From Keratinibaculum paraultunense (GTDB taxonomy: Bacteria > Bacillota > Clostridia > Tissierellales > Tepidimicrobiaceae), in the NCBI RefSeq assembly GCF_016767175.1, contig NZ_CP068564.1, forward strand, positions 1,240,001-1,304,000: 64,000 nt of DNA. Direction: 5' to 3'. The notes under the pieces were generated by a model. It did no database searches, was not told where the DNA came from, and saw only the letters and a program-made list of their open reading frames with translations. Positions 6,758-28,380 of the stretch are shown in pieces (positions within the stretch are counted from its first letter, which is position 1; each line of letters starts with the position of its first letter). The position numbers and the translations under genes were made by a program.

Positions 6758-8123
6758 ATCTAATACTTATATATTTCCATTTATCAGTCTTAAATCTTAA
6801 AGTTATTAATGCCCATCTCACAAACTGATCACAAAACATGGCATACCATGCTCCTAATAATCCTAATCCTAATATATTTATAAAAAGATGTGCTAATGCT
6901 ACTCTAACAACCAAAACGCTGAAAAATATAGCAATTAAAGTCCAAACTGTATCTCCTGCACCTCTTAATCCTCCAGATATTACAAGCTGAGATGATTGAA
7001 AAGGCTGCATTATAGCTATTATTTTTAGTATTTTTGTTGCTTGAGCTATTACCTTTGGATCCTTAGTATATAAACTAGCTACAAAAGAACCAAAAAAGAA
7101 AAATAAAATACCAATTGCTATAGCTATAACAGTCCCTATTCTTCTGCTAGTTTTAATATATTCTTCTGCCCTATCTGGATCATCAGCTCCTAAACTCCTA
7201 CCTACCAGAGAGGAAGCTGCTATTCCAAATGCTTGTCCAGGAGTAAATGTAAGACCAGATATATTTAAGCATATTTGATGAGTAGCATAAGCTACTGTGC
7301 CTAAAGAAGAAACCATTCGTACAAATATTAAAATTCCAACTCTAAAAGCTATTTGTTCCAGGGACGCTGGAACACCAATTTTTACTAAATTATAAATTAT
7401 ATCCTTATTAAATTTAAATTTATTCTTTAAATTTATCTGTATTATAGTATCCTTTTTAAATATATATCTTAATAACATCAATGTTGCCACAAATTGAGAA
7501 AAAGTTGTAGATATTGCTGCACCAGTTACTCCTAGCCTAGGAAATCCAAGTAATCCATATATGAGTAAAGCATTGCCTACTACATTTAATGTATTCACCT
7601 TTAAATTTATACTCATAGGAGTTTTAGTATCTCCTGCTCCCCTTAATACAGCATAAATAGAAAAATTAAAAGCTTGAAATATAATACCTACCACTATAAT
7701 TTTAAAATAATTTCTACCATACATCAATGTATCTTCATGGGCACCTATAAATTTCATTATTTGGTCAGTATATTTTAACCCTAATATAAAAATAGGTAAT
7801 ACCAACAAAATTTGTGTTAATAAAACCACGTGTCTAACTACAGATTCTATCCTATCTTCCTTTTTAGCACCTACATAACGAGCAACCATAGCTGTTGCTC
7901 CTACATTTAAAGATTGAACTAGTGATAAAGCTATAAATACAAGCTGATTAGTAATTCCTACAGCTGCAATAGATGCTGCAGCTTCAGTTGGATCGTCAAT
8001 CCTTCCTAACATCATCATATCTACCATTCCAAATAATGTGCCTAAAAAAACCTCTACTAAAACAGGTCCTGCTGTTTTAAGTACTATATCACGAATTGTT
8101 TTTTTATCACAAGATTCATCCAC
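6756..8123 (-). CDS. MATE family efflux transporter
   Basis: This is a twelve-helix multidrug and toxin extrusion protein of about 455 residues that exports cations or drugs using a Na+ or H+ gradient. Both MATE halves are visible, the first near LVEVFLGTLFGMVDMMMLGRI and the second near GVPASLEQIAFRVG, each followed by the typical repeat pattern (GAGDTKTPM; GAGDTVWTL). The likely start is the GTG at 8123 preceded by AGAGGTGG; an in-frame GTG at 8132 lies inside that ribosome binding site. It is convergent with sdaAA. Its substrate cannot be read from sequence. Confidence 0.92.
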   Translation of the reverse strand: MDESCDKKTIRDIVLKTAGPVLVEVFLGTLFGMVDMMMLGRIDDPTEAAASIAAVGITNQLVFIALSLVQSLNVGATAMVARYVGAKKEDRIESVVRHVVLLTQILLVLPIFILGLKYTDQIMKFIGAHEDTLMYGRNYFKIIVVGIIFQAFNFSIYAVLRGAGDTKTPMSINLKVNTLNVVGNALLIYGLLGFPRLGVTGAAISTTFSQFVATLMLLRYIFKKDTIIQINLKNKFKFNKDIIYNLVKIGVPASLEQIAFRVGILIFVRMVSSLGTVAYATHQICLNISGLTFTPGQAFGIAASSLVGRSLGADDPDRAEEYIKTSRRIGTVIAIAIGILFFFFGSFVASLYTKDPKVIAQATKILKIIAIMQPFQSSQLVISGGLRGAGDTVWTLIAIFFSVLVVRVALAHLFINILGLGLLGAWYAMFCDQFVRWALITLRFKTDKWKYISIR

Positions 8124-8218
8124 AATAACCACCTCTTGTAAATAATTTCGATACCCTAAATATTATAACATAAATCATATATAAATCAAATATATCATAA
8201 ACGCTTTTTTATTTAAAA

Positions 8219-11269: not shown

Positions 11270-11334
11270 ATATCTTCCTCCAAATTTATAATCTTAATTA
11301 AAATTTTATAATAATACCTTTAAAAAATCAAATA

Positions 11335-11361
11335 AAAAGAAGCTTTTAAGCTTCCTTTTTT
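11335..11361. terminator. Terminator after the glucan synthase gene
   Basis: A GAAGCTT / AAGCTTC hairpin (11339-11354) is flanked by A5 on one side and T7 on the other, so it can work in both directions. It is 17 bases past the stop of the giant minus-strand gene. Confidence 0.7.
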
Positions 11362-11377
11362 TATCCTTTATAAACTA

Positions 11378-14300
11378 TTAAATGTTTTTATCTATACTTC
11401 CCAATTTAACTACAATAAAATGCTCTATTCCATCATTTTCTAAATTAATATATTCTTTATCTATATTTACTCCATCTACTATTATGCTATTTATTCCTTT
11501 GTTAACTCCATGGGGATTTTTTACTTCTATATTGTAATAAGTATAGCCATATTTGTATCTAATATTATACTTGCTCCAATCTTTAGGTATACATGGATCT
11601 ATAAATAATTTATCATTTTCTATCCTGAGTCCAAGTATATCCTCTAATCCTACTTTATACATCCATCCAGATGAACCTGTATACCAAGTCCAGCCACCTC
11701 TACCTATATGTTGAGGATTAGTATATACATCAGCTGCCACTACATAAGGCTCCACTTTATAGGTAGCACATTCTATGGAAGTTCTAGAGTGATTAATTGG
11801 ATTTATCATGCTAAATAATCTATAAGCCTTATCACCTTCCCCTAACATGGCAAATGCCTTTATAACCCAAGTAGCAGCATGGGTATATTGCCCTCCATTT
11901 TCTCTTACCCCAGGTACATAGGATTTTATATATCCTGGGTCTAACAATGTATTATCAAAAGGAGGCGTAAGCAAAGCTACAATACCTGCTTCTTCATTTA
12001 CTAAGTATTTTTCTACTGATCCTAATGCTATTTCTGCCCTTTTTCTATCACCTAAAGTAGAGATAACAGACCAAGATTGAGGAATAGAATCTATCATACA
12101 TTGGCTATTTTCCTTAGAGCCTAAAGGAGTACCATCGTCAAAAAAGGCTCTTTTATACCATTCTCCGTCCCATGCATTAGTCTCTATTTTATCTTTTAGT
12201 TTTTGTATTATATCATTATATTTTTTAGCTCTACCCAAATCTCCCTTTATTTCACAAATGGGAATAAAATTTTTAAGTACAGTAACTAAAAACCAAGCTA
12301 ACCATACAGATTCCCCTTTTCCTTTATAACCTACCTTATTCATGCCATCATTCCAATCTCCTCCTCTCATAAGAGGCAGACCTCTTTCTCCAAAGTTTAA
12401 AGATTTTTCAATAGCTCTAATACAATGCTCATATACTGTTCCTATTTCTTTAGATAAGCTAGGAACTTCATATCTTTCATATTCATCTTCTTCTAATATT
12501 GGACTTTCTATAAAAGGCACCTTTTCCTCAAGTATACTATTATCTCCTGTTATTAATATATATTCTGCTACTCCTAATGGCAACCAAAGTAAATCATCAG
12601 AATATCTACTTCTGATACCCTTATGAACTTGACTATCTGGTATAGGGTGCCACCAATGTTGTATATCCCCTTCTTTGTATTGATGTTTACAATTTCTAAT
12701 AATTTGTTTTCTTGTGTTTTCTGGTATATGATAAATAGTATTCATTGCATCTTGCATTTGATCCCTAGCTCCAAAAGCTCCTCCCACTTGATAAAAACCT
12801 GCTCTTCCCCATATTCTACATACTATGGTTTGATATATTAACCAACTGTTCATCATGTAATTCATGGTATTGTCTGGGGTTTCTATTTGAATCTTTGACA
12901 ATATACTATCCCAAAAACTTTTAACCTCTTCTAAAGCTTTCTTTGCTTTTTTAACATCCCTGTATTTATCTAGAAGAATAAGTCCCTTATCTATCATATT
13001 TTCTTCTCCTAGTAAAAATATAAGTTCTTTTTCAGACTTAAGAGGAAGATTTATATTTACTCTAATAACTCCACAAGGATTGTAACCTAAACCTACACTA
13101 TTGGATAGTTTCTCCCTTCTAATACCCTCTGGATTATCATAGGAAGGTATATTTCCTAAAAATTCCTTTCTACTGCCAGTATAAGAGTGTATTTTTTCAG
13201 ATGCCCCTATGAATATAGTACTATCTTTAAACTCTCTATTGGTAGAATTTTTTATAAATAATGTTTCCCCATCAATACCTGTTTCCAATAAATTTTCAGT
13301 TTCTTCATCTGTAACTCCTAGTACTGGTCTAATATAATAAATTAAACTTATATTTCTGTCCTTATTACTTTGATTTTTTAATCTTATCAGATTGATTTTT
13401 ATATTATCCTCTATAGGAGTAAACATTGTAAGTTTTTGTTCTATACCATGACTTTCATGATAAAAGCTAGTATACCCTTGCCCATGGGTAATTATATAAT
13501 CATTTTCATCCCTAATAGGATATGGAGTTATAGTAAATATCTCTCCTGTATCTTCATCCATTAAGTATATTATTTCCCCAGATTTTCCTAATAGAGGATC
13601 ATTATACCATGGAGTTAGTTTGTTTTCTCTACTATTTTGACACCAACTAAATCCAGTGCCTAATTCATCTACTATAAATCCAAACTCTTTGTTTCCAATT
13701 ACATTTATCCAAGGCAAAGGAGTATTCAATTCCTTAGTCAATCTAATAATATATTCTCTACCCTCATTATAAAATCCCCCATATCCATTAAAATAATCTA
13801 ATTTTAATATCTTTGAACTTACTTGATAATCTATAGACTTATAATCAAATTCCTTATAAGGCATTGTTTTTATTTCTTTACCCTCTATAATAGCTCCTTC
13901 CTCTGATTTAATAATAACTCTAGCCCATTTATATAACAAAATTTCATCTTCTTTCAAAAGGGTGTTTTTATTTCGAATAAATATTCCTCCTGAAGTATCC
14001 ACTATATTGCCTCTTTTTCTATATACTATCTCCCTAATGTTTTCAAATAGTGGTTGGTAATATATGCTCTCATCTTCATTCAATATTACCAAATCCACTT
14101 TTAATCCTTTGTAAGACCAATATTCGTGAGCATCTACTAATTTTTTTATGGTTTCTATTCCCTTCATAGATTTAATGGTAACTAAAACTATAGGATTATC
14201 ACCAGATATCCCCTGAGCCCATAATCCTTCTTTCCCTTTTTTATTTTGTTTTAATATATGTTCATATTTATGCTTAATATTTTCGTCCACATAAAGTAAA

Positions 14301-17300
14301 TAGGGCAATAATTCTTCATAAAATTCTATATTATCATGATTTAAATTTAAATATCCTATTTCTGTTTGACTTTTAGTTCTAGAAAGATCCAATGCCATTT
14401 TTATATTTTCCCTATTGGAATACTTATTAAGTATATCTATAACTTCCTTTTTATCATTAGTTAATGCAGTAATAAAATATATTTCCTTTTCTTCTTTGGG
14501 TTGCAACTTTATTTTAGTACCTATACTCATTATAGGGTCTAGTACTACTCCTGTAGTATTAGTAAGTCCTTTAACAATTCCTTTTGGCTTTTTTAATGAA
14601 TTTCCTCTCCCTATAAAATTTGATCTACTAGTTTCATATTGTAATTCATATTCCCTTTCATTAAAAAACTTCATACCATGAACTATCCAAAAATCTAGCA
14701 ATTTGTCATCTCTATTCCTTCTATTAGAAAGTATTCCTTGCTGTTCTTCTAGCAGTTCAGTTTTGATAAATAAATTGTTAAAAGCAGGATGAGCTATATC
14801 AGAATCAAAAGTTGAACCTGTAATTTCAAAATAACTGGTAATTTCTAATATAGTTTCTTCATCCCCATTATTCTTTAATTTTACTTTCCTGATTTCTCCT
14901 AATTCCTCTGGAAGTAAAAATATATCCATTTTGGTCTCTATATCTCCATCTTCACGATAAAATTTCACTTTGTAATTAGAAAATTCCACTTCATAAGCAT
15001 CTGGCTCTTTGTATGTAGGAGCATAAGTAGTAGACCAAATATCTTCATTAGATACATCTTTTATATATATAAATTGTCCATAAGGGGTAGAAAGGAAATC
15101 CTTTCTCCAACGATTTATAAATATATCTTCATTTTTAGAATAGCCTTCCCCTCTATTATTTATCATTAAAGAATAGGTGTTTGAAGATAATAGATGACAT
15201 TTAATTTTACATAAATCATCTTTTGAATATACTCTACTCTTCCATGGTAATTCTTTTTTAGGCATTATTCTTATTCCTTCTAAATTTTCCTTTTCCTTAG
15301 ATATAATAGGATTTAAAGGTATTTTTTCTTGAAGCAGCAATTCACCACATTTCATCTGTGGATCCCTATGAAATCTATTTACCATTATATCCTTATTTAT
15401 AAAATTATTTATAGAAACAAATATCATCCCTTGATGATGGCTCATATAGGATTTAACAATTCCTCTATCCATATGATTGGGTAATCTCCAGCTAGTATAA
15501 TCTATGGCTTCATAAAATCCATAAGATCCTTCTAATCCTTCATTCTTTAATTTTTTAATATTTTTCAAAGCTTCATTAGGAGCAAATTTTAAAGCTAAAA
15601 AAGTTGAATAAGGGGAAACTACCAATTCATCTCTCAAACCCCGTTTAAAACCTAAAGCAGGTATTCCAAAAGCCTTATATTGATAATTAAGCTGATTATC
15701 AAATGCAAAAAAACCTGATTCTGAAATCCCCCAAGGTATATTATGATAATTTCCATATTCTATTTGTATATTAATTGAAGTTTTATAGCTTTCATCCAAT
15801 AGGGTATTTTTATAATTTTTTAATACCAAAGTAGGCATTAAATATTCAAACATGGTACCAGCCCAAGAAGCTAATGATATATATCCTTTTTCTACAATCA
15901 AAGATTTTCCCAATCTATTCCAATGTTCTAAAGGAATCTCTCCTCTTGAAATAGCGATATAAGATGAAATTCTAGCCTCAGAAGCCAACAGATCATAATA
16001 GGATTTCAATGGCTTATCCTCTTCTACATTATGACCAATATAAAACAAGTCCTTTGTCTCATCATATAAAGGATAAAATTTAGTATTATCTATTATATTT
16101 TGAATTCTATAAAGTAAATCTTCAGTTTTTGCTATAAGTTCTTCATCCATCTCATCACAGTCTATATATTCCTTAATCCCTTCTTTTAAAGTTATTAAAT
16201 AAGATACAAAATTTCCACTATCTACTGTAGATACAAATATAGGTTTTAAAGGCTCTAGGTTTTCAGTATTATACCAATTATATAGATGCCCTTCCCACTT
16301 ATCCATCTTTTCTATAGTACTTATAGTTAAATCCACTAAATTTACCATCTCCCTAGTATTAATAAAACCTAAATCTCTACTAGATAATATGGCTAAAAGA
16401 TAAAAACCTATATTGGTAGGAGAAGTCCTATTGGCTATTCCATTATAAGGGTATTCTTGAAAATTATCAGGGGGAATATAATTATTCTTTTCATTGGTAA
16501 AAGCTTTATAATATTCCCAAGTTTTTCTCCCAATTTCTTTCAAAAGCTTTATATCTTCTCCATCAATCTCTATAGTTTCTATGTCTTCTTTGCTGATAAT
16601 ATATGCCACTAAAGGTCCCATTAACCATAACAAACTAATTATTATACTAATCCATAATCTATTTGGGTTAAATATATAGCTTACAATAAGTAACAATAAA
16701 GATATTATTATATTTTGATTCATCCTCTTCATATAACTGGAAAAATTATTATCTAATCTTTTCTCCATATCAAATGCAGTAGTCCATTCCAATAAATTCT
16801 TGTTAGAAATAAATACTCTGTATATAGTCCTTCCTATAGCGTCTAACATCATATAAGCCTCATGAGGCAAAAACATTAAAGATAAAATTCCTTGATATAA
16901 ATATACCTTGTATCCTAAAATAAGATTTCCATTTAATTTTATCTTCTTAATTCCATCTCCCATTGAAAATATACCTTCCAATGCCATGTTTATAAGAGGC
17001 AAAAACAATGTCAAAATGGGAATAATTAAATATACAAATATATTTCCAGGAAAAAATACTACCCCTAGTAATATAGTTAACAATAAAGTTATAGACAATA
17101 AACTTCTTCTCATATTATCTAATATTTTCCATTTCGAAAGGGAATTAATATGTTCGCTATAAGGTTTTTTAAGCCATCTAATTAACTGCCAATCCCCTCT
17201 AACCCACCTATGCTGCCTCATAATATATGAACTATATTTCTCTGGATATCCATCTATTAAAGCAATATCTGTGGCTAAACCTGCCCGAATATAACTACCT

Positions 17301-19474
17301 TCCAGTAGATCATGGCTTAATACAGTATTTTCTGGAATGGCATCCTTCAAACACCTTTGAAAAATATTTAAGTCATATATACCTTTTCCTGTAAATATTC
17401 CTTCTCCAAACAAGTCTTGGTATATATCAAAAGATGCAGTACTATAAAAATCCACTCCTCCTGTCCCTGCAAATATTCTAGTAAATAAAGATTTGTTACT
17501 ACTTTCTATATCTACTAAAATATTAGGTTGAATAATACCGTAACCTTCTATTACCCTACCCTTATTCTCATCTAATATAGCTTTATTTAAGGGATGGGCT
17601 ATAGTACCTATCAATTTTTTTACTCCATCTATAGGCAATATGGTATCTGCGTCTAATGTAATTACATATTTAATTTTCCCATGTAATTTAGATATATTTC
17701 CAGATATAGTACTAAAACTAGTACCTTCTTTTCCTAATAACAATTCATTAAATTCTACCAAAGCTCCCCTTTTTCTTTCCCATCCCATCCATCTATCTTG
17801 AGTTTTAGAATATGTCCTTCTTCTATGGAAATAATAAAATATCTCTTCCCCGTTTCCATATTTTTCGTTTAATCTCTGAGTAATTTCAATACCCTTATGT
17901 ACAATCTCCTCATCAAATTTAGTCACTTCACTATCTTCATCTTTAAAATCCCCCACAATACCAAAATAAATATTATCTTCTCTATTAGAAAGATAATATA
18001 CTTCTAAACTATTAAATAATTCTTCAACTCTTTCTACATTAGGCAAAAGAGTGGGAATTACTACAAAAGTGCTATATTCCTCAGGAATACCCTCTTTCAA
18101 ATCTAGTTTTGGAAGTATTTTAGCCCTATACCTTTTTGAATATAAATAATTTACAATATTTATAGAAATAGTTAGTATGGGTATAGATGTAATAATAAAA
18201 ACAAATATACTCCAATAAATATTTCCTTTATTATAACTATATAAACTAATCAATGTAGCTACTAAAATCCATAAAAAAATAATAGGAAAATAATAATAAA
18301 CATAATTTTCTAGATAGAGCTTATTAGACTTAGATTTTATTTCAAAAAAATCAAAAAGTTCTTCCCTACCTTTGCCTAAAATATAATATCCTATATGGGC
18401 TTTTTTATCTCTAAAGCCTTTATTCCATTCCTCTTTAGCTAATTCTAATATCTTTTTAGATACAAATATCTCCTGTACTTTAAATCTCTCAGCTAATATT
18501 TCAACCTCATATCTATAATAAGCTTTAGAAGAAGAATCCATATTTGAATATATACCTAGAGGATCCTCATTAAAAATATTTTCAACTACAGATATAGAGT
18601 TAAATATATCTTCCCAATCCAAAGATGATAAATCCCTTAAGGAGCTTATACCATATCCTAAGGATAATTTATACTTAGATTGTCGTATATACTCTCTTTC
18701 TAATATAGCATTAATATCTGTACCTATATAGTTTAATTTGTTATCTATAATGTCCAATGTGTTTGCAAAGTTCTTACCTTTTTTCCGTATTATTCTAATT
18801 AATCTTTCTATTTCTCTAGAATCCATATTGGGTATATCTTCTATTAAATATTCCAAATTGTTCTCTAGAGAAAGTTCATCTATTTTTTCCCATATCATAT
18901 AAGTATCAATTAAATTTGTTGATATATCTCTTATATACTCTATTAATCCCAATGTTAGAAAAGTGGGTAAATGATATATTTCCTCTAATGTTAATATTTC
19001 TTCCCTTTGAAATCCATTAACAAATCCCTTTATACTATCTTCTGTAATTTTACCTATTGTATGGGATATTAATTCTAAAGCTAAAATATACACAATGGGA
19101 TAACCCTTCAATACTCCTTTTTCTACTATTCTCACTCTTATATTTTTTTCTTTTTTTAAATTAAACTTTAATTCTTTATATATTAATTCAATCATATAAA
19201 AATTATCTAAAAGCCACTCTGTACCTTTTGGCAATTCTTTATAAGAATTTTTATTAAAATATAGATATATATTTTCAATTTCCTTAAAATTATCATCAAG
19301 TCTTTTTAAAAGAAACCTTTTTACATTCACCTTTTTATTTACTCTATATATTTCTCCTATTTCTTCTCCATGCTGTATTAATCTATCCTTATCTAAATCT
19401 ATGTCCTTTACTATTATAGGATTTCTATTGTCTTTAAAATTAAAAGCTGAACCCATTATTGATCTTCCTTTCAT
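11378..19474 (-). CDS. Cyclic beta-1,2-glucan synthase (NdvB/ChvB-like, GT84 + GH94)
   Basis: This giant membrane enzyme of about 2,698 residues should polymerise glucose from a nucleotide sugar into beta-1,2-glucan and cyclise it. In order: an N-terminal region to about 390; two membrane segments near 400-450; a GT2-like/GT84 domain with DADT near 609 and the RQHRWVRGDWQ motif near 754; a cluster of membrane segments near 790-960; a glycoamylase-like central domain near 1000-1400 (SWAGTMFEYLMPTL), where cyclisation is carried out in known enzymes; and a C-terminal GH94 phosphorylase-like part with GGDWNDGMNKVGYKG near 2374. Its start overlaps the nucleotidyltransferase stop: TTG 19477, ATG 19474 (AAAGGA) or ATG 19456 (AAAGGAAG) are all possible. 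Confidence 0.88.
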   Translation of the reverse strand: MKGRSIMGSAFNFKDNRNPIIVKDIDLDKDRLIQHGEEIGEIYRVNKKVNVKRFLLKRLDDNFKEIENIYLYFNKNSYKELPKGTEWLLDNFYMIELIYKELKFNLKKEKNIRVRIVEKGVLKGYPIVYILALELISHTIGKITEDSIKGFVNGFQREEILTLEEIYHLPTFLTLGLIEYIRDISTNLIDTYMIWEKIDELSLENNLEYLIEDIPNMDSREIERLIRIIRKKGKNFANTLDIIDNKLNYIGTDINAILEREYIRQSKYKLSLGYGISSLRDLSSLDWEDIFNSISVVENIFNEDPLGIYSNMDSSSKAYYRYEVEILAERFKVQEIFVSKKILELAKEEWNKGFRDKKAHIGYYILGKGREELFDFFEIKSKSNKLYLENYVYYYFPIIFLWILVATLISLYSYNKGNIYWSIFVFIITSIPILTISINIVNYLYSKRYRAKILPKLDLKEGIPEEYSTFVVIPTLLPNVERVEELFNSLEVYYLSNREDNIYFGIVGDFKDEDSEVTKFDEEIVHKGIEITQRLNEKYGNGEEIFYYFHRRRTYSKTQDRWMGWERKRGALVEFNELLLGKEGTSFSTISGNISKLHGKIKYVITLDADTILPIDGVKKLIGTIAHPLNKAILDENKGRVIEGYGIIQPNILVDIESSNKSLFTRIFAGTGGVDFYSTASFDIYQDLFGEGIFTGKGIYDLNIFQRCLKDAIPENTVLSHDLLEGSYIRAGLATDIALIDGYPEKYSSYIMRQHRWVRGDWQLIRWLKKPYSEHINSLSKWKILDNMRRSLLSITLLLTILLGVVFFPGNIFVYLIIPILTLFLPLINMALEGIFSMGDGIKKIKLNGNLILGYKVYLYQGILSLMFLPHEAYMMLDAIGRTIYRVFISNKNLLEWTTAFDMEKRLDNNFSSYMKRMNQNIIISLLLLIVSYIFNPNRLWISIIISLLWLMGPLVAYIISKEDIETIEIDGEDIKLLKEIGRKTWEYYKAFTNEKNNYIPPDNFQEYPYNGIANRTSPTNIGFYLLAILSSRDLGFINTREMVNLVDLTISTIEKMDKWEGHLYNWYNTENLEPLKPIFVSTVDSGNFVSYLITLKEGIKEYIDCDEMDEELIAKTEDLLYRIQNIIDNTKFYPLYDETKDLFYIGHNVEEDKPLKSYYDLLASEARISSYIAISRGEIPLEHWNRLGKSLIVEKGYISLASWAGTMFEYLMPTLVLKNYKNTLLDESYKTSINIQIEYGNYHNIPWGISESGFFAFDNQLNYQYKAFGIPALGFKRGLRDELVVSPYSTFLALKFAPNEALKNIKKLKNEGLEGSYGFYEAIDYTSWRLPNHMDRGIVKSYMSHHQGMIFVSINNFINKDIMVNRFHRDPQMKCGELLLQEKIPLNPIISKEKENLEGIRIMPKKELPWKSRVYSKDDLCKIKCHLLSSNTYSLMINNRGEGYSKNEDIFINRWRKDFLSTPYGQFIYIKDVSNEDIWSTTYAPTYKEPDAYEVEFSNYKVKFYREDGDIETKMDIFLLPEELGEIRKVKLKNNGDEETILEITSYFEITGSTFDSDIAHPAFNNLFIKTELLEEQQGILSNRRNRDDKLLDFWIVHGMKFFNEREYELQYETSRSNFIGRGNSLKKPKGIVKGLTNTTGVVLDPIMSIGTKIKLQPKEEKEIYFITALTNDKKEVIDILNKYSNRENIKMALDLSRTKSQTEIGYLNLNHDNIEFYEELLPYLLYVDENIKHKYEHILKQNKKGKEGLWAQGISGDNPIVLVTIKSMKGIETIKKLVDAHEYWSYKGLKVDLVILNEDESIYYQPLFENIREIVYRKRGNIVDTSGGIFIRNKNTLLKEDEILLYKWARVIIKSEEGAIIEGKEIKTMPYKEFDYKSIDYQVSSKILKLDYFNGYGGFYNEGREYIIRLTKELNTPLPWINVIGNKEFGFIVDELGTGFSWCQNSRENKLTPWYNDPLLGKSGEIIYLMDEDTGEIFTITPYPIRDENDYIITHGQGYTSFYHESHGIEQKLTMFTPIEDNIKINLIRLKNQSNKDRNISLIYYIRPVLGVTDEETENLLETGIDGETLFIKNSTNREFKDSTIFIGASEKIHSYTGSRKEFLGNIPSYDNPEGIRREKLSNSVGLGYNPCGVIRVNINLPLKSEKELIFLLGEENMIDKGLILLDKYRDVKKAKKALEEVKSFWDSILSKIQIETPDNTMNYMMNSWLIYQTIVCRIWGRAGFYQVGGAFGARDQMQDAMNTIYHIPENTRKQIIRNCKHQYKEGDIQHWWHPIPDSQVHKGIRSRYSDDLLWLPLGVAEYILITGDNSILEEKVPFIESPILEEDEYERYEVPSLSKEIGTVYEHCIRAIEKSLNFGERGLPLMRGGDWNDGMNKVGYKGKGESVWLAWFLVTVLKNFIPICEIKGDLGRAKKYNDIIQKLKDKIETNAWDGEWYKRAFFDDGTPLGSKENSQCMIDSIPQSWSVISTLGDRKRAEIALGSVEKYLVNEEAGIVALLTPPFDNTLLDPGYIKSYVPGVRENGGQYTHAATWVIKAFAMLGEGDKAYRLFSMINPINHSRTSIECATYKVEPYVVAADVYTNPQHIGRGGWTWYTGSSGWMYKVGLEDILGLRIENDKLFIDPCIPKDWSKYNIRYKYGYTYYNIEVKNPHGVNKGINSIIVDGVNIDKEYINLENDGIEHFIVVKLGSIDKNI

Positions 19475-21900
19475 CAAAATCCTTTAATTAGCTTTTTTAT
19501 CTTCTCATCATATAAATTTCCTAGCTCTTCAGCATATTCTTCATCGTATCCTTCAATGTAAAGGTTGAATATAGGTTTCTCTTCATCAGGTATAATCATA
19601 GCCCATCCTTTATCCTCTATAAATCTAACCCCTTCTATTAACTCCTTTCCTTGCTGTCCTTCTTCAGTTAGTCTTCTTAGTATATTTCCTTTATCTTCCC
19701 ACTGGCAAGGAATTTCTTTTTTGAAATAAAAATATTCTGGTATTTCTTGTAATAATTTATTTAAAGTCATATTCTGGCCATATAAATAATCCAATATATT
19801 CCCTATAGCCCAAATTCCATCAAAATTTAATATATATTGAAATTCTATTCCTTTATCTATTATAGTTCCCATAATATCCGTTATATTGGATTTACTATAA
19901 TTAATATTTGCATTATATTTATTAGCTAATTTTTCCACTATTCTAGGGAAATTATAAGGAACAACTGCTTCCTTTAATTCTCCAGTTTTAAAACCTAAGC
20001 TTAAAATCAATAACCAATATCTTTCATTCTCAATACTATTAAATCCATCAGTCAATGCTATCCTTTCCCCATCTATAGAAAATAATACTCCTAAGTCTGC
20101 ATCTTCTTCTAATACCTTTTTTCGAACATCTTCTATAGTATATTCTTCTCTATAATGCATCTTTTTTACATTACAACCTATTCCTATTAAATACTCTTCA
20201 GCCAATTTCATAATATTCTCAGAGGGAGAAGTTATATTTATATTAGGTTTTCTACTCTTAATTTTTTCTATATTTTTTAAACTCAATTTCCCTTCTCTAA
20301 TATAAATTTTGAAAAAATTATTAACACTTACTACATCCTCCATTTCTTCACTAGAACATCTATTGAAATCTCCTGTAATAAGGGAATTCTCTATTTTTCT
20401 TTTTGTATTTTTATCTATATTAACTCCTCTTTTATCCATAAATTCTATATTTATCTCATCAGCTTTATTGGTACTTATATATATACCTCCTTGTGCATTA
20501 AAATATTTTATTCCAAATCTACACATGGGCAAAGCACCATCCTCAATATCTATAACTTGACTCCCTGTTGAAAGCAATCCTGATATAAGTAAATTCTTTA
20601 TGGATTTAGATAAATTATTGCCATCGCTACTAATTATATAACTTCCTTTATTATCTATAACTGTAGCAAAAGCAGTCCCCAAGCTAACAATCATCTCTAA
20701 AGTTACATCTCGATTAAATATTCCCGTTATATTTCTATTTCCAAATAGTCTTTTGTTAATCCCTTCACCCCATATGAGATTATCTTTAACTATAACATTT
20801 TCATCAATAGTCTTATATGGCCATATCTTTACTCCAGGTTTTATAGTGGTATTCTCATATATCTTAGAATGTGCTCCCACTACAGCTTCAAATAACCTAC
20901 TGCGTTTATCCATATACACTTGATTACAAATCACTGATTTTCTTATTTCACAATTTTCTTCAATTATCACATTCTCCCATATGATACTTCTCTTTATAGA
21001 TGTACCTCCTTTTATTACACAGTCACTCCCAATTATTGTATAAGGTTCTATGATTGCTCCTTCACAAATTAAACAGTTTTGCCCTATATATACAGGAGGA
21101 TATAGTTTAGCACCTTTTTCAATAATCGTTCCCTTTTCTATCCAAATTCCATTTTGTACTTTTTCCCCTAATAAATAATGTTTTTTAAAATCTTTCATAA
21201 TATCTTCATGGGTTTTTATGTAAGAACCTATATCTCCCACATCACACCAATACTCTTCTGCTATATATCCATACATGGGAATATTATCCATTAATAGTCG
21301 AGGAAATAAATCTTTACTAAAATCAAAATTATCTCCCTTGTTGTAGTAATCTAACACTTCCGGTTCCAATATATATATTCCTGTATTTATAGTATCGCTA
21401 AATACTTCACCCCAACTAGGTTTTTCTAAAAATCTTATAATCCTTCCATTTTCATCAGTGATCACCACACCATACTCTAAAGGTATTGCTTCTCTTTTTA
21501 AAATCAATGTAGCTTTTGAACCCTTTTCTTTGTGAAATTCATAGGCTTTTGTTAAATCTATATTAGTGAAAGCATCACCACTAATAACTACAAATGTACT
21601 GTCTAAAAAATCTTGAGCATTTTTTACACTACCACCAGTACCTAATGGTTTATCTTCAATATAATATTTAATATTTACATCAAATTTCTCCCCATCCTTA
21701 AAATATTCCTTTATTTTATTGGGAAGATAATGCAAAGTAACAGCTATATCCTCTATCCCATGTTCCTTTAAAAGGTTTATACTATATTCCATAACTGGTC
21801 TATTAAAAATAGGCACCATTGGCTTTGGCAATTGACAAGTAAGTGGTCTAAGCCTAGTACCTATACCTCCTGACATAATTACTCCCTTAATTGTAATCAC
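19474..21900 (-). CDS. Sugar-1-phosphate nucleotidyltransferase fused to a degenerate phosphohexomutase
   Basis: Three parts are visible: a nucleotidyltransferase at about 1-235 (GGIGTRLRPLTCQLPKPMVP, GTGGSVKNA, ISGDAFTNIDL), a left-handed hexapeptide repeat region at about 250-370, and a phosphohexomutase-like domain at about 380-800. The family is usually called mannose-1-phosphate guanylyltransferase/phosphomannomutase. The mutase part looks inactive. Where active enzymes have TASHNP, with its phosphoserine, this protein has STNKAD (about 472-477). The metal-binding DGDxDR loop is replaced by SIDGER (about 610). The GTG at 21900 touches its ribosome binding site, and an ATT nine bases further in is better spaced. 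It overlaps the glucan synthase, so it may provide that enzyme's nucleotide sugar. Confidence 0.85.
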   Translation of the reverse strand: MITIKGVIMSGGIGTRLRPLTCQLPKPMVPIFNRPVMEYSINLLKEHGIEDIAVTLHYLPNKIKEYFKDGEKFDVNIKYYIEDKPLGTGGSVKNAQDFLDSTFVVISGDAFTNIDLTKAYEFHKEKGSKATLILKREAIPLEYGVVITDENGRIIRFLEKPSWGEVFSDTINTGIYILEPEVLDYYNKGDNFDFSKDLFPRLLMDNIPMYGYIAEEYWCDVGDIGSYIKTHEDIMKDFKKHYLLGEKVQNGIWIEKGTIIEKGAKLYPPVYIGQNCLICEGAIIEPYTIIGSDCVIKGGTSIKRSIIWENVIIEENCEIRKSVICNQVYMDKRSRLFEAVVGAHSKIYENTTIKPGVKIWPYKTIDENVIVKDNLIWGEGINKRLFGNRNITGIFNRDVTLEMIVSLGTAFATVIDNKGSYIISSDGNNLSKSIKNLLISGLLSTGSQVIDIEDGALPMCRFGIKYFNAQGGIYISTNKADEINIEFMDKRGVNIDKNTKRKIENSLITGDFNRCSSEEMEDVVSVNNFFKIYIREGKLSLKNIEKIKSRKPNINITSPSENIMKLAEEYLIGIGCNVKKMHYREEYTIEDVRKKVLEEDADLGVLFSIDGERIALTDGFNSIENERYWLLILSLGFKTGELKEAVVPYNFPRIVEKLANKYNANINYSKSNITDIMGTIIDKGIEFQYILNFDGIWAIGNILDYLYGQNMTLNKLLQEIPEYFYFKKEIPCQWEDKGNILRRLTEEGQQGKELIEGVRFIEDKGWAMIIPDEEKPIFNLYIEGYDEEYAEELGNLYDEKIKKLIKGF

Positions 21901-21958
21901 TCCTTCACAAATAGTTACATATACATATTTTGTGAAGTTTTATATAAATTATACATAG

Positions 21959-22002
21959 TAAAAGCCTTCATTTTTGTAAAACTACAAAAATAAAGGCTTT
22001 TA
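21959..22002 (-). terminator. Terminator of the phosphoglucomutase gene
   Basis: A near-perfect hairpin with AAAAGCCTT / AAGGCTTTT outer arms and ATTTTTGTA / TACAAAAAT inner arms around a 4-base loop, 14 bases past the pgm stop. It separates pgm from the downstream nucleotidyltransferase transcript. Confidence 0.78.
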
Positions 22003-22015
22003 TTTATCCATATAT

Positions 22016-23707
22016 TTATTTTATTGACTCGATTCTGTCCATAGTTGCTTTTTCTATAGCTTTTATTTTATTTTTAGAAGCTTGTTTTTCCTTGTCTTTT
22101 GAATATATATACACTTTTACCTTTGGTTCTGTTCCAGAAGGTCTTATTGCATACCAAGAACCATCGTCAAAATAGTATTTTAATACATTGGATTTTGGAT
22201 TACCTGTTTCATCATTTAAGTAATCTATAATTTTCATAAGCTTCATATCCCCTATATTCCTAATAGGATCTTCTCTAAAAGAATCCATTATCCTATTAAT
22301 TCTTTCTTGGCCCTCTACACCTTCTAATACTATTGAAATTAATTTTTCAAAATAATATCCATATTTCTTATAAATTTCGTTTAATTCATCTAATAAAGTT
22401 TTTCCTTGCTTTTTATAATAAGCTGTCATTTCAGCTATAAGCATAGATGATATAACTCCATCCTTATCCCTTACTATAGTACCATATACATATCCGATGC
22501 TTTCTTCATACCCCATTATAAAGGTATATTCTCCAGTTTTATCAAACTCATTAGCCTTTCCACATATATTTTTAAATCCAGTAAGAGTTTCTATAGTAGC
22601 TACATTATATTCTTTAGCAATAGCTTTCCCCAAATCTCCTGTTACTATGGATTTTACTATAGCTCCATTTTTAGGGATGGTACCATCTCTATGCCTAGAT
22701 GATAATATATATTTTACTAACAATGCACCAGTTTGATTCCCATTTAATGCTACATATTCTCCATTAAAATCCTTAACCATACAAGCTACCCTATCACAAT
22801 CTGGATCTGTAGCTATCAATAAATCGGCATTTTTTTCTTTTCCTAGCCTTATAGCATAATCAAAAGCTTTTATATCCTCTGGATTAGGATAACCTACTGT
22901 AGTAAAATCTGGATCTGGGTTTTCCTGTTCAGGTACTACAAATACATTTTCAAATCCTCTTTCTCTTAAAACTCTTCTAACAGGTTTGTTCCCTGTACCA
23001 TTTAATGGAGTATATACTATTTTTATATCCTTATCTATATCTTCATTTAGTGCAAGACTTTTTACATCTTCTATGTATTCATCGTCTATTTCTTTTCCAA
23101 TATAATTTATTAACGCCTTATTTAGCCCTTCTTCTAAATCCATAAATTTTACATTTGAAAAGTCCCCTATAGCATTTATATTATTTAATATTTCTTCTGC
23201 TATATCATCAAGAATTTGAGAACCTTCTTCCCAGTATACCTTATATCCATTATAATCTTTAGGATTATGACTAGCAGTAATCACAACACCAGATATAGTG
23301 CCTAATTTTCTAATAGTATAGGATAAAAGAGGAGTAGGACGTATATCGTCAAATAAATAAACCTTTATACCATTTGCTGCCAATACACTAGCAGTAATTT
23401 CAGCAAACTCTTTAGAAAAATGCCTTACATCATATGCAATAGCAACTCCTCGTTTCATAGCATCTTTTCCCCTTGCCTTAATGGTTTCAGCTAACCCTTG
23501 AGTTGCTAAAGATACAGTGTATTTATTCATTCTATTAGTACCAGCACCAATTTTACCACGCATTCCAGCAGTTCCAAAAGTTAAATTTGTATGAAATCTA
23601 TCCAATATTTCTTCTTCATTATCTCGTATAGACTCTAATTCTTTTTTAGTGTCTTCATCAAAATACTCGCTACTTAACCAATAATTATATTTTTCTAAAT
23701 AATCCAT
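22016..23707 (-). CDS. pgcA: Phosphoglucomutase/phosphomannomutase (PgcA type)
   Basis: This phospho-sugar mutase of 563 residues interconverts glucose-6-phosphate and glucose-1-phosphate. The active phosphoserine loop is intact (GVVITASHNPKDYNGYK), as are the metal loop DPDCDR and the C-terminal phosphate-binding RPSGTEPKVKVY. The ATG at 23707 is chosen because AGGAGG lies seven bases upstream; an ATG at 23734 lacks one. It sits just upstream of the nucleotidyltransferase and glucan synthase genes, separated by a terminator. It could therefore supply glucose-1-phosphate for that pathway as well as for wall and glycogen metabolism. Confidence 0.93.
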   Translation of the reverse strand: MDYLEKYNYWLSSEYFDEDTKKELESIRDNEEEILDRFHTNLTFGTAGMRGKIGAGTNRMNKYTVSLATQGLAETIKARGKDAMKRGVAIAYDVRHFSKEFAEITASVLAANGIKVYLFDDIRPTPLLSYTIRKLGTISGVVITASHNPKDYNGYKVYWEEGSQILDDIAEEILNNINAIGDFSNVKFMDLEEGLNKALINYIGKEIDDEYIEDVKSLALNEDIDKDIKIVYTPLNGTGNKPVRRVLRERGFENVFVVPEQENPDPDFTTVGYPNPEDIKAFDYAIRLGKEKNADLLIATDPDCDRVACMVKDFNGEYVALNGNQTGALLVKYILSSRHRDGTIPKNGAIVKSIVTGDLGKAIAKEYNVATIETLTGFKNICGKANEFDKTGEYTFIMGYEESIGYVYGTIVRDKDGVISSMLIAEMTAYYKKQGKTLLDELNEIYKKYGYYFEKLISIVLEGVEGQERINRIMDSFREDPIRNIGDMKLMKIIDYLNDETGNPKSNVLKYYFDDGSWYAIRPSGTEPKVKVYIYSKDKEKQASKNKIKAIEKATMDRIESIK

Positions 23708-23903
23708 ATTAAAACCTCCTGATCTAAGGTCCACATTTCTACTTACTATTATTGTTACCTATAATACAAAAATAGTATTTATTCCATATTGAATATAAGT
23801 TCCGTAACTATTTTTGCCATATATAATTGTTTTAATCATAGTTTCTACTATTTATTCTAATATATTAAATATTATAGCATAATTTGGGAAAAGAAAGAAC
23901 AGA

Positions 23904-23951
23904 TAAAATAATATACACCTTAAGGATATCCTTAAGGTGTATATTATTTTA
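23904..23951. terminator. Perfect 48-nt loopless palindrome at the HD-gene stop
   Basis: A perfect palindrome centred at 23927/23928 (core CCTTAAGGATATCCTTAAGG). It includes the stop codon of the HD-domain gene and ends in T4 on each strand, so it probably terminates transcription of that gene. Confidence 0.7.
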
Positions 23952-24510
23952 ATCCAATCTCTTTTGATACTTTTTTCATACCTTCTATAGTTTCTGCAAT
24001 TACTTCATTTAAATCCATTCCAAGCATTTCTGCTCCTTTTGCAATTATTTCCCTATTGACACCAGCAGCAAAGGATTTATCTTTCCACTTCTTCTTTACA
24101 GATTTTACTTTCATATCTGATATCCCAGTAGGACGCATTAAAGCAGTGGCATTAATTAACCCTGTTAATTCATCAATGGTATACAATACTTTTTCCATCT
24201 TTTCAATAGGTTCTACATCAGTACAGATTTCCCAACCATGACTCATTATGGCACGTATATAGTCTTCCGGCCAATTTTCTTCTTCCAATATTTCCTTTGT
24301 TTTTTCACAATGTTTATCAGGATACATTTCATAATCTAAATCATGTACTAAACCTATGATTCCCCATTTTTCCACATCTTCTTCAAATAACTCTGCAAAA
24401 TGTCGCATAACTGCTTCTACTGCTAATGCATGATTTATTAAGCTTTCACTTTTATTATACTTTTTTAAAAGCTCAAAAGCTTCTTCTCTTGTAGGAACTT
24501 TTCTTTCCAC
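23944..24510 (-). CDS. HD-domain metal-dependent hydrolase
   Basis: A 188-residue single-domain HD protein. The metal-binding residues are visible: His in INHALAVE, HD in GLVHDLDYE, His in DKHCE, and His in IMSHGWE. HD proteins are phosphohydrolases acting on nucleotides or related phosphoesters; the substrate is unknown here. The start is a GTG with GAGGTG five bases upstream. It lies 33 bases after the nitroreductase stop, so the two may be co-transcribed. Small HD proteins of this kind are common in Clostridia. Confidence 0.85.
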   Translation of the reverse strand: MERKVPTREEAFELLKKYNKSESLINHALAVEAVMRHFAELFEEDVEKWGIIGLVHDLDYEMYPDKHCEKTKEILEEENWPEDYIRAIMSHGWEICTDVEPIEKMEKVLYTIDELTGLINATALMRPTGISDMKVKSVKKKWKDKSFAAGVNREIIAKGAEMLGMDLNEVIAETIEGMKKVSKEIGLK

Positions 24511-24543
24511 TTGGACACCTCTTTCTTATAAGATATAATTTAT

Positions 24544-25053
24544 TTAACAAAATTTATCATAGCATACTATTTCATCAAGTTCTTTTCTTGGTCTAGGAGC
24601 AGGCGATTCAGCTGGATAACCTAAAGGTGTAATTGCAACTACTCTTACATCTTCTGGAATACCTAATACTTTTTTTACTTTATCTTCATCATAACTACCT
24701 AACCAACAAGTGCCAAGCCCTTGTTCATAAGCCTCTAATATCATATATGCAGTAGCAATAGATAAGTCAACTGTATATCTTGGTTGACCTCCTCTCATAA
24801 CACTTTTTGTTTCTGTACCACAACTAACTAAAATTATAGGAGCTTCCCCAACAAAAGATTGGCCAATAGCTTCTGTAAGTTTTTCCTTCGTTTCTGGGTC
24901 CTTTACAACTATAAATTTCCAATTTTGTTCATTCCTCGCTGATGGTGCAAGTCTTGCAGCTTCTAAAACTTTCAAAAGTTTCTCCTCTTCCACAGGTTTA
25001 TCACTATATTTTCTTATACTTCTTCGATCTTTAATTGCAGACAATACATCCAT
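24544..25053 (-). CDS. Nitroreductase family protein
   Basis: A 169-residue FMN-dependent nitroreductase-like protein. The start ([21 protein letters not shown]) holds the Arg cluster that binds FMN phosphate, and [15 protein letters not shown] and [16 protein letters not shown] are standard family blocks. Such enzymes reduce nitro compounds, quinones or flavins with NAD(P)H; the physiological substrate is unknown. AAGGGGG precedes the ATG. The protein is short but complete for the compact subfamily. Confidence 0.88.
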
Positions 25054-25118
25054 TTTTTTAATACCCCCTTAATTTTTAATATAGATTTTAATTACTATAT
25101 ATTATTATATCAAAAACA

Positions 25119-25140
25119 GCAACAATTAAAAAATTGTTGC
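25119..25140 (-). terminator. Terminator of the psuK-psuG operon
   Basis: A 9-base-pair stem (GCAACAATT / AATTGTTGC) with an A4 loop, followed on the minus strand by a T-rich run (GTTTTTGAT), 7 bases beyond the psuG stop. Confidence 0.75.
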
Positions 25141-25146
25141 TACTTT

Positions 25147-26067
25147 TTAGAGTTTATATACTTTTTCCAATTCAATGGCTAAGTTAGCTCCTACACGCGC
25201 ATTATTATAAACCAATTCTACATTGGATTTTAAGCTTTCCCCTTCTGTAATTTCTTTAACCTTTTCTAACAAAAAAGGTGTTACTTCTTTTCCTTTTATT
25301 CCTTTAATTTCTGCTTCCTTCAACGCATCTTCTATTGCTTGATTTATTATAACAGGATTCATTTCGTATTCCTTAGGTATTGGATTAGCTACTACTATGC
25401 CCCCATCTAATCCCAAATCCCATTTTGTCCTTATAGCCTTTGCTAATTCCATTTCATCGTCTACTTTGTAATCTACATTAAATCCACTTGTTCGAGTAAA
25501 AAATGCAGGAAATTCTTGAGTTTTAAACCCTACAACAGGCACTCCAAAGGTTTCCAAATACTCCAATGTAAGACCTAAATCCAATATAGCCTTAGCTCCT
25601 GCACATACCACAGCTACATTAGTTCTTGCTAATTCTTGTAAATCAGCAGATATATCGAAAGTTTTCTCAGCTCCTCTATGAACACCACCTATACCTCCTG
25701 TAACAAATACTTTAATACCAGTTAAATTAGCTATAATCATAGTAGAAGCTACAGTAGTAGCACCATTTAATTCTTTAGATAATATAAAGGGCAAGTCTCT
25801 CCTACTAACCTTATATACATTATTAGCTTTTCCTAAATATTCAATTTCCTCGTCACTTAATCCTACCTTAATTTGCCCATCTAATATGGCAATAGTAGCT
25901 GGGATTGCACCTTTATCTTTAATTATCTTCTCCACATTTAATGCAGTTTTCACATTTTGAGGATAGGGCATACCATGGGAAATAATTGTAGATTCTAAAG
26001 CTACTACTGGTTTTGATTCTTCCAAAGCTTTTTTTACATCTTCTTTTATACTTATATATTTATTCAT
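25147..26067 (-). CDS. psuG: Pseudouridine-5'-phosphate glycosidase
   Basis: A 306-residue enzyme that splits pseudouridine-5'-phosphate into uracil and ribose-5-phosphate (it runs reversibly in vitro). Family blocks are clear: VALESTIISHGMPYPQNVKTA, ATIAILDGQIKVGL, GGIGGVHRGAEKTFDISADL and GLDGGIVVANPIP. Its ATG overlaps the stop of the upstream kinase gene by one base (TAATG), so the pair is translationally coupled. It acts in the cytoplasm on modified nucleosides from RNA turnover. Confidence 0.95.
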   Translation of the reverse strand: MNKYISIKEDVKKALEESKPVVALESTIISHGMPYPQNVKTALNVEKIIKDKGAIPATIAILDGQIKVGLSDEEIEYLGKANNVYKVSRRDLPFILSKELNGATTVASTMIIANLTGIKVFVTGGIGGVHRGAEKTFDISADLQELARTNVAVVCAGAKAILDLGLTLEYLETFGVPVVGFKTQEFPAFFTRTSGFNVDYKVDDEMELAKAIRTKWDLGLDGGIVVANPIPKEYEMNPVIINQAIEDALKEAEIKGIKGKEVTPFLLEKVKEITEGESLKSNVELVYNNARVGANLAIELEKVYKL

Positions 26068-27347: not shown

Positions 27348-28286
27348 CTAATTTAACTTTTCTGTTTTAAAACTTGTGTCTAAAAAAAATGCCTGCCTTT
27401 TATTCTCGTCTGCTATATCTTTAAACTCTAATTGATAAACCGTTGGATTGGTGTTAGATTTTACAGTCAATAGTCTATGTTTAGAATCATAAGCACATAT
27501 ATATCTTGTATACGTGTTATAATTATATTTTTTATTTCTAATAAAACCGTTAGGTAAAGTCATTACACCCATTATATTATAAAAATTTAAAAAAGCTTCT
27601 TTATGATCATTAGATTTAACATTCATTTTGGTTAAATAAAAAGCTTTAATATATCTAGATACAGGATCATAAGCTCCTGGTAAATTCTTAGCTGATTGAA
27701 AATCTTCTAGATTCTCCAAATCTAAATTTTTTTTAAGTCTTCTAATATGGGATTCAAATCCTGGTGAATTAGTCATAACACCATAAGGATTTTCAAAACA
27801 CACTAATTCTCTCTTTTTAGGTTCGATAACGATACACCTTTTAGAAGAATCAGTAAACATAAAATGAAAGCCTGGAGATATTACATCCTCACCTTTGTGA
27901 TCTTTAGCAGACATATGAATATTTGGTAAGTCCTCAACTATCTCCTCTACATTTTTATAATTCGTAAGTGCATAGTTTAGGTAATTCAAACTGGATATAT
28001 TAACCTTTTCTGCTTCTACTTGATTAGCATATAGGTTAAATCCTGAAAAAACATTGGTAATTCCTATCAACCCATGTTCATTTACACCATCTTTTAACGG
28101 ATCTTTATTTTCAAAACAAACTCCCATAACTTTATACTTAGTGTATAAAGGATTGCCCATAAGATCATTGCAATAATTGTAGTTCCTTGGCAAATATAAT
28201 ACATTATAATTCAAAGGGTACTCATAGTCCATTGTTCTTCCCATAACACAGCCATCTTTATAATCTATTTTTATACCTGTACACAT
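27348..28286 (-). CDS. Choloylglycine hydrolase/penicillin V acylase family (C59)
   Basis: A linear amide C-N hydrolase of the Ntn family, about 312 residues. Starting at the ATG at 28286 puts Cys at position 2, the self-processed nucleophile of this family. Arg17 and Asp20 (GRTMDYE), the Asn in GVNEHGLIG and the Asn in VMTNSPGFE match the other conserved catalytic residues. A longer start at 28337 would bury the nucleophile and is rejected. Substrates could be conjugated bile salts, penicillin V or N-acyl signals such as homoserine lactones; sequence alone does not decide. No signal peptide is seen, so it is probably cytoplasmic. Confidence 0.87.
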   Translation of the reverse strand: MCTGIKIDYKDGCVMGRTMDYEYPLNYNVLYLPRNYNYCNDLMGNPLYTKYKVMGVCFENKDPLKDGVNEHGLIGITNVFSGFNLYANQVEAEKVNISSLNYLNYALTNYKNVEEIVEDLPNIHMSAKDHKGEDVISPGFHFMFTDSSKRCIVIEPKKRELVCFENPYGVMTNSPGFESHIRRLKKNLDLENLEDFQSAKNLPGAYDPVSRYIKAFYLTKMNVKSNDHKEAFLNFYNIMGVMTLPNGFIRNKKYNYNTYTRYICAYDSKHRLLTVKSNTNPTVYQLEFKDIADENKRQAFFLDTSFKTEKLN

Positions 28287-28380
28287 ATTATTCTTCTTCA
28301 CTCCTCTTTGCTTGGTGCAGATAAAACTGCAACCCACTCACTATAAATATTTTAACTGTGAAGTACTTAAATATTAAGAT

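Follow-up and report, generated by a model that had tools for sequence, protein, structure and literature searches.

The stretch of Keratinibaculum paraultunense DNA analysed here (64,000 nucleotides (nt) of contig NZ_CP068564.1, called the window below) carries three open reading frames (ORFs) in a row on the minus strand. They encode a phosphoglucomutase (P0003, 22016-23734), a nucleotidyltransferase fusion (P0002, 19474-21900) and a cyclic glucan synthase (CGS, 11378-19477). A preliminary description had taken these same-direction genes for a possible three-step cyclic beta-1,2-glucan pathway; the ORFs are real and the family assignments hold, and we propose a pathway operon made of the last two genes. 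The locus is arranged as follows:

22016-23707, minus strand: phosphoglucomutase (P0003), likely starting at ATG 23707 behind AGGAGG, with the longest ORF reaching 23734; the expected glucose-1-phosphate source, a housekeeping gene and not a dedicated part
21959-22002, minus strand: 20-bp terminator-like hairpin between phosphoglucomutase and nucleotidyltransferase (-23.4 kcal/mol, z -7.5)
19474-21900, minus strand: nucleotidyltransferase - left-handed helix - mutase-like fusion (P0002), 808 amino acids from GTG or 805 from ATT 21891
11378-19456, minus strand: CGS, likely starting at ATG 19456, with the longest ORF reaching 19477 (2,699 amino acids)
11334-11359, minus strand: terminator-like hairpin with a T tail 3' of CGS

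Residues 59-2652 of CGS match the Agrobacterium/R. radiobacter CGS (8rf9) in two stretches (phmmer, E 0, 1731 bits), and the middle part matches the T. italicus cyclization domain 8wy1 (phmmer). Three catalytic regions can be placed:

17000-17668, minus strand: GT2/GT84 core with D609/D611, D723 and Q755-x-x-R-W, and the priming-site Y678 (counted from TTG at 19477)
15272-16561, minus strand: GH189 cyclization domain with the acid/base E1167, E1211, the nucleophile E1253 and H1347-H1348
11630-12916, minus strand: GH94 phosphorylase domain with the catalytic D2377

The transferase motifs, which we take to be those named DxD, D and QxxRW, are intact. Alignment to 8wy1 equates E1167, E1211, E1253 and H1347/H1348 with E1356, E1400, E1442 and H1536/H1537 of the T. 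italicus enzyme, and Y678 and D2377 align to Y694 and D2528 of R. radiobacter CGS. In T. italicus, E1356 is the acid/base and E1442 the nucleophile, with roles also given to E1400 and H1536/H1537 (PMC10834661), and in R. radiobacter Y694 is the priming tyrosine and D2528 the GH94 catalytic residue (review PMC11842490). The identity proposed for the synthase was thus borne out at every residue tested (priming, transferase, GH189 and GH94), and as far as its sequence tells it is a complete CGS. That it would make a linear or differently linked glucan is very improbable: CGS is known here from its sequence alone, which leaves some room for such a product, but both catalytic Glu and both His of GH189 are conserved and the solved T. 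italicus domain makes rings on its own (PMC10834661).

In P0002, an NTP_transferase domain (residues 5-235) is followed by a left-handed helix domain and, at the C terminus, by a region in which Pfam recognizes only PGM_PMM_I:

19477-20751, minus strand: phosphohexomutase-fold domain of the fused enzyme, lacking conservation of the catalytic Ser and of the Asp, sugar and phosphate loops

This tail aligns nearly end to end with GlmM of the same genome (hhalign, probability 99.9). Most of it has a pLDDT above 90 in the AlphaFold model (whole model 79.9, pTM 0.56), and its top Foldseek matches are phosphohexomutases (TMt 0.83), which identifies an alpha-D-phosphohexomutase fold. What we take to be the catalytic motifs of these enzymes, the Ser and the DGDGD, GEQSG and RPSGTEP loops, are all four altered or absent: compared with GlmM, the catalytic Ser is replaced by Thr, DGDGDR by SIDGER and RPSGTEP by IPDEEKP, and GEQSG is aligned to unlike residues. 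The motifs are also unconserved in 17 aligned relatives, with a variable Ser position. The tail is probably non-catalytic; conceivable roles are the binding of a sugar phosphate and the stabilization of the oligomer. The best named matches to P0002 come from Clostridium sp. Cult3, two Tissierellia metagenome-assembled genomes (MAGs), [Clostridium] ultunense, a Clostridiales MAG and Anaerosalibacter bizertensis, names that make membership in Tissierellales probable.

To describe how the two genes are distributed, we used 150 genomes drawn evenly from the order, counting CGS by its transferase-to-GH189 part (E <= 1e-30) and the fused enzyme at an identity of at least 45 %, contig-end pieces included. 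We discarded seven short matches of 35-40 % identity to other nucleotidyltransferases; four of these came from genomes in which the fused gene is present as well. CGS is present in 35 of the 150 genomes. The fused enzyme was found in 33 of these 35 and in 0 of the 115 genomes without CGS; G046 and G127 are the CGS genomes that lack it. In 32 of the 33 pairs both genes lie adjacent on one contig and in the same direction, with the fused gene first, and the remaining pair (G118) is split between contigs. The neighbour and co-occurrence check suggested earlier therefore comes out positive within the order, with the nucleotidyltransferase beside CGS in 32 of 35 CGS genomes, and the objection that the genes might not be neighbours in related genomes fails there.

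In a second sample of 398 genomes from the phylum (CGS at E <= 1e-60), 57 contained CGS. Given these counts and the solved T. italicus cyclization domain (8wy1; PMC10834661), the earlier statement that there are few Firmicute examples is out of date; a literature search on glucan synthase or ndvB in Firmicutes returned no Firmicute CGS in titles or abstract starts. The fused or a related family is wider still, with 222 of the 398 genomes matching P0002 at 1e-60. A FastTree phylogeny of 131 fused enzymes, calculated with long-branch warnings, groups every one of the 49 rows that bear the label CGS-adjacent into a single clade of 52 rows (local support 100). Adjacency is seen in 48 of the 49, the label of L038 (G118) having been given despite the contig break. 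The other three rows of the clade are L103 and L106, in which the contig breaks off after the gene, and L053 (G477). Two of the observations speak against the donor pathway proposed below: among the matches listed, only 11 of the 57 CGS genomes of the phylum, our own included, have the fused gene adjacent, and G477, although a member of the paired clade, gave no CGS match and thus carries the gene without CGS. At 20 other CGS loci that we fetched, CGS has no fused gene as its neighbour. In the loci L108 and L117, a contig assigned to Melioribacter and a Clostridiales contig have 30 identical bases upstream of the gene; the former is possibly misbinned.

The extent of the transcription unit differs from the first proposal in two respects. 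First, the stop/start overlap between nucleotidyltransferase and synthase is doubtful. It depends on the first possible CGS start, TTG 19477 or ATG 19474, and in the close relative L010 the first residue of the CGS ORF corresponds in the alignment to codon 8 of the present gene, ATG 19456, which is preceded by AAAGGAAG; a start there leaves a gap of 17 nt behind the nucleotidyltransferase gene. Even with the longest possible ORF, the gap measures 10-96 nt in 17 of 18 relatives (L010-L027) and none of these shows an overlap; L023 has a disrupted CGS frame. Secondly, the phosphoglucomutase gene seems to stand outside the unit. It is encoded in 143 of the 150 order genomes, with or without CGS. 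Within the 33 pair genomes it lies directly upstream of the pair on the same strand, at about 90-220 nt, in 19, is non-adjacent or not found in 11 and is undecidable in three (G082, G114 and G118). Here, the hairpin and a promoter-like element separate it from the nucleotidyltransferase gene, and a strict terminator scan did not have the hairpin (22002-21959) among its calls. Because of the hairpins 3' of phosphoglucomutase and 3' of CGS and the distribution of phosphoglucomutase, the operon most likely consists of two genes, the fused gene and CGS. A three-gene operon was rejected on account of the hairpin, the promoter-like element and this distribution; the same-strand adjacency in the 19 genomes is what speaks for a dedicated three-gene pathway operon, which we regard as improbable. 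A search with Rfam at gathering threshold gave no riboswitch or other match in 18000-26000.

A MATE-family transporter gene (6756-8132 here; L029:2342-3751) recurs in seven of the compared CGS loci, in L029 directly upstream of CGS, and is a possible exporter. The neighbours of the CGS loci were clustered and some of them named, a procedure from which the absence of an exporter cannot be deduced.

To narrow down the nucleotide sugar made by P0002, we searched its own genome (2.31 Mb, single contig) for related enzymes. PF00483 at E up to 0.01 retrieved P0002, GlmU, three distant relatives read as TarI/IspD type, MobA and IspD, and PGM_PMM_I retrieved the phosphoglucomutase P0003, GlmM, the P0002 tail and nothing else. 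There was no GalU match at E 1e-20. Since GalU gave no match and the PF00483 matches are of these kinds, P0002 is the only visible glucose-nucleotide source among the searched families. Two other genomes carry GalU directly behind CGS, at 74 nt in G127 (L028:13750-14631) and at 14 nt in G259 (L088:2969-3886), with no adjacent fused gene. The pairing with CGS, the lack of a GalU match in the own genome and the position of GalU in G127 and G259 together indicate that the fused enzyme most likely makes UDP-glucose. G364 (L087) gave no GalU match; separated from its CGS by one upstream position and in the same orientation, it has the gene for a 370-amino-acid nucleotidyltransferase that lacks the mutase tail, and CGS thus has donor genes of three types in its vicinity.

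Similarity searches with P0002 point in both directions. Among solved structures, its N-terminal half is closest to 8x7s/tlr0611, named UTP-glucose-1-phosphate uridylyltransferase (227 bits) and presumably of the CugP type; GDP-mannose pyrophosphorylase structures follow as the next structural relatives. Against GalU (TIGR01099) P0002 scores 59.6 bits, under the cut-off of 326.8. Several points weigh against a UDP-glucose-forming enzyme. In NCBIfam, P0002 scores highest against a mannose-1-phosphate guanylyltransferase (NF052502, 237.9 bits, under the cut-off of 440), so that GTP is a possible substrate. The UGP-type family PF01704 was not included in the genome search that found no GalU. Furthermore, GalU is as frequent in pair genomes (17/33) as elsewhere (60/117), which means that the fused enzyme cannot be regarded simply as replacing GalU, and a genome-wide replacement of GalU by the fused gene was dismissed for want of any association. 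The product might accordingly be GDP-glucose or GDP-mannose, or some other nucleotide sugar that serves, for instance, in glucan decoration, while CGS obtains UDP-glucose elsewhere. The guanylyltransferase as top family score, the GDP-mannose pyrophosphorylase structures and the coexistence of GalU with the pair in the 17 genomes would all fit, but 16 of the 33 pair genomes, including our own, have no GalU over the cut-off, GalU occupies the place beside CGS in G127 and G259, and the best match among solved structures carries the name of a uridylyltransferase; we consider this explanation unlikely. The earlier idea that the nucleotidyltransferase makes the donor of its neighbour thus stands as the best reading, while the choice between UDP and GDP is not decided by the sequence.

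Taken together, the gene content, the domains with their catalytic residues, the near-exclusive pairing in the order, the lack of a GalU match in the own genome and the loss of the mutase motifs make it probable that the two-gene operon serves the synthesis of cyclic beta-1,2-glucan and that the fused nucleotidyltransferase supplies UDP-glucose to CGS. From these observations we infer the donor, the ring product, the function of the dead domain and the operon structure. Glucose-1-phosphate would come from the neighbouring housekeeping phosphoglucomutase, which is probably expressed separately, and would be converted to UDP-glucose by the fused enzyme. CGS would then prime its tyrosine, extend a beta-1,2 chain from UDP-glucose, trim the chain by GH94 phosphorolysis and close the ring by GH189. 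One clade within the large family of nucleotidyltransferase-pseudomutase fusions thereby gains a probable function.

Upstream of the fused gene, the following element was found:

21926-21954, minus strand: promoter-like element GTATA-15-CACAAAATA, similar to forespore sigma-G promoters of small acid-soluble spore protein (SASP) genes (12.8 bits with a SASP-trained matrix)

In C. difficile, SASP genes are under the control of sigma-G and spoIVA is named as a sigma-E target (PMC3789822). For comparison, we fetched 20 SASP upstream regions from the same group and built the matrix from 13 of them; seven of the 20 were unmatched by the regular expression used and were dropped, and this expression was written after the boxes of the fused gene were known, which weakens the promoter test. 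Near-duplicate loci (L090, L091, L092, L094, L095, L096 and L108) were removed before counting, L034, L038 and L052 have no readable 5' end, and the partial match L087 was excluded from the start counts given below. The resulting 49 paired-clade loci include L103 and L106, and the 80 other fused genes include GC-richer cyanobacteria and L053 (inside the paired clade in the tree, without CGS and reading ATG).

The element has the highest score with the SASP matrix on both strands of the window. The two-box pattern G[ACT]AT[AG]-(14 to 17)-CA[ACT]AnnnTA, derived from the same sequences on which it was counted, is present in 31 of 49 paired-clade loci, 62-86 nt ahead of the start position, compared to 0.36 expected in shuffles, and in 2 of 80 other fused genes. 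Using the SASP matrix, 28/49 clade upstreams beat 95 % of their own shuffles, compared to 6/80 of the others. At 10 bits or more it recognized 8 of 19 fused-gene upstreams and none of 119 other genes (window 1-40000 together with L010-L027); at 5 bits the numbers were 13/19 and 6/119, and 2/10 for phosphoglucomutase genes. A SASP-like promoter sequence is therefore found in the window and in eight of the 19 loci at 10 bits, not in all. A matrix from 20 spoIVA upstreams performed no better than chance (4/49 in the paired clade, 10/80 outside), and a sigma-E promoter for the fused gene was rejected on that result. A sigma-A promoter, TTCACA-17-TATTTG, overlapping the start and yielding a leaderless GTG mRNA, was set aside, though we still consider it possible, because the GTATA/CACAAAATA pair is more widely conserved and fits SASP promoters.

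The distribution of spoIVA is in line with a link to sporulation: it was detected in 32/33 pair genomes compared to 59/117 others. The miss among the pair genomes is G114 (80 % complete), and in G110 only a fragment below the cut-off was seen. Neither G046 nor G127, which have CGS and lack the fused gene, gave a spoIVA match. With genus and family codes counted by hand, the association amounts to 22/22 versus 19/46 by genus and to 9/9 versus 6/10 by family (p 0.09); part of it is thus attributable to shared ancestry. Of the upstreams of unpaired CGS genes in the phylum, 4/22 beat 95 % of their shuffles (about one expected). One unpaired CGS gene (L074, G260) has a strong SASP-like element of 16.5 bits, and forespore expression may extend beyond the paired clade.

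Expression of the operon in the forespore, suggested by this element, is less certain than the donor and ring pathway. Apart from the weak family-level association, two further sites in the window, of 11.8 bits (43246, plus strand) and 11.1 bits (9983, minus strand), tell against it. It is quite conceivable, if short of probable, that the operon is expressed vegetatively from an ordinary promoter and that the forespore-like element and the spore-gene link reflect shared ancestry and AT-rich DNA. Besides the points just named, the two-box pattern is absent from 18 of the 49 paired-clade loci, and 11 of the 19 fused-gene upstreams stay below 10 bits. Against vegetative expression stand the contrast at 10 bits between fused-gene upstreams and the other genes of the same loci and the chance-level result of the spoIVA matrix.

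The start of the fused gene is unusual as well:

21889-21905, minus strand: AAGGAGTGATTACA-ATT, an extended Shine-Dalgarno sequence with ATT 21891-21889 at the Met1 position and an in-frame GTG (21900-21898) inside the Shine-Dalgarno sequence

In the window, ATT lies 9 nt behind the AAGGA of AAGGAGTGAT. The Met1 position, defined as the one before K/R-A/G/S-V/I-I/V-M, reads ATT, ATC or ATA (AUH) in 41 of the 49 readable paired-clade loci and ATG in eight. Among the 80 other fused genes AUH does not occur there; 79 have ATG, GTG or TTG and one has AGG. An in-frame GTG is located 9 nt upstream of AUH, next to or inside the Shine-Dalgarno sequence, in 39 of the 41 loci, which makes the start ambiguous. 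AAGGA is only 0-2 nt away from this GTG, a spacing rare among ATG genes (6/73, compared to 63/73 with 5-11 nt), and GTG is therefore a poor start. In L051 an in-frame TGA separates GTG from AUH, so that the upstream start is unusable unless the sequence is wrong; it is the sole such locus. The exact frame of GTG, retained even where the preceding bases have changed (L017, L023 and L027), speaks for it; ATG genes with the same Shine-Dalgarno sequence have a distance of 7-10 nt, with 9 nt in only 3 of 14. The protein would begin with M-K-G-V-I from AUU and with M-I-T-I-K from GUG. Both starts are compatible with the predicted structure, whose first strand begins at residue 5, and in L047 an ATG occurs two codons upstream of the start position. 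On balance we lean towards AUH, and the gene is a conserved candidate for non-AUG initiation. Control of such starts is known from Streptomyces sigR, where a GTC start is repressed by IF3 (PMC5472188), and S. aureus uses AUU and AUA starts behind extended Shine-Dalgarno sequences in infC, ccpN and cvfC1 (PMC13009471).

The bacterium analysed here is probably a spore former. These features led us to a tentative proposal for Tissierellales-like spore formers, which we hold to be quite conceivable, if short of probable: the pair would be a forespore sigma-G operon, the glucan would be made in the developing spore as a core protectant or as a carbon store from which GH94 returns glucose-1-phosphate, and the first gene may use the conserved AUU/AUC/AUA start behind its extended Shine-Dalgarno sequence, placing donor synthesis under IF3-type control. 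Cyclic beta-1,2-glucans have been studied as osmoregulatory or host-interaction factors in Rhizobiales, Brucella and similar bacteria. A forespore operon, if real, would give them a new compartment and a new role in spore dryness, heat resistance or as a reserve. A literature search linking cyclic glucan or 2-glucan with sporulation, forespore or endospore returned nothing relevant. Among the species found here, Anaerosalibacter bizertensis and [Clostridium] ultunense are examples of cultured ones in which the idea is open to testing; the locus of the latter (L092/L033) has the two-box element. Interest in the locus is raised by the unusual start and by the forespore-like promoter, each conserved in most of the clade and neither mentioned in the preliminary description.

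Elsewhere in the window, a 20-bp inverted repeat (23904-23951) lies between an HD-domain gene and phosphoglucomutase, and a choloylglycine-hydrolase-like protein is encoded at 27348-28337 (151 bits, under the NCBIfam cut-off of 350).

Compared with known systems, CGS has the same domain order, priming Tyr and GH94 Asp as the Rhizobium radiobacter/Agrobacterium enzyme (8rf0, 8rf9 and 8rfe), but it is about 100 residues shorter and is paired with a nucleotidyltransferase fusion. It shares the GH189 cyclization domain of T. italicus CGS (8wy1), with both catalytic Glu and three supporting residues kept; that study used the isolated domain, and its available text describes no partner gene or expression timing (PMC10834661). 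The window element shares with the SASP sigma-G promoters of the same genomes a G-first -35 pentamer ending in TA, the 15-nt spacing and a CACAnAATA -10 box, and as a predicted, sequence-defined element it differs from them by one base in each box. Like infC, ccpN and cvfC1 of S. aureus (PMC13009471), the fused gene has AUU or AUA at the start position behind an extended Shine-Dalgarno sequence, but 39 of 41 loci differ by having a GTG in frame 9 nt further upstream. The cyanobacterial 8x7s (tlr0611) has the N-terminal nucleotidyltransferase and helix domain in common with P0002, and its solved chain (401 amino acids) is without the phosphohexomutase-like tail. The nucleotidyltransferase-mutase-like fusion family of Firmicutes and cyanobacteria has the same architecture as P0002, and the consensus of its 131-row profile lacks the mutase motifs as well; from this broad family the paired clade is set apart by its tie to CGS, the codon at the start position and the upstream element.

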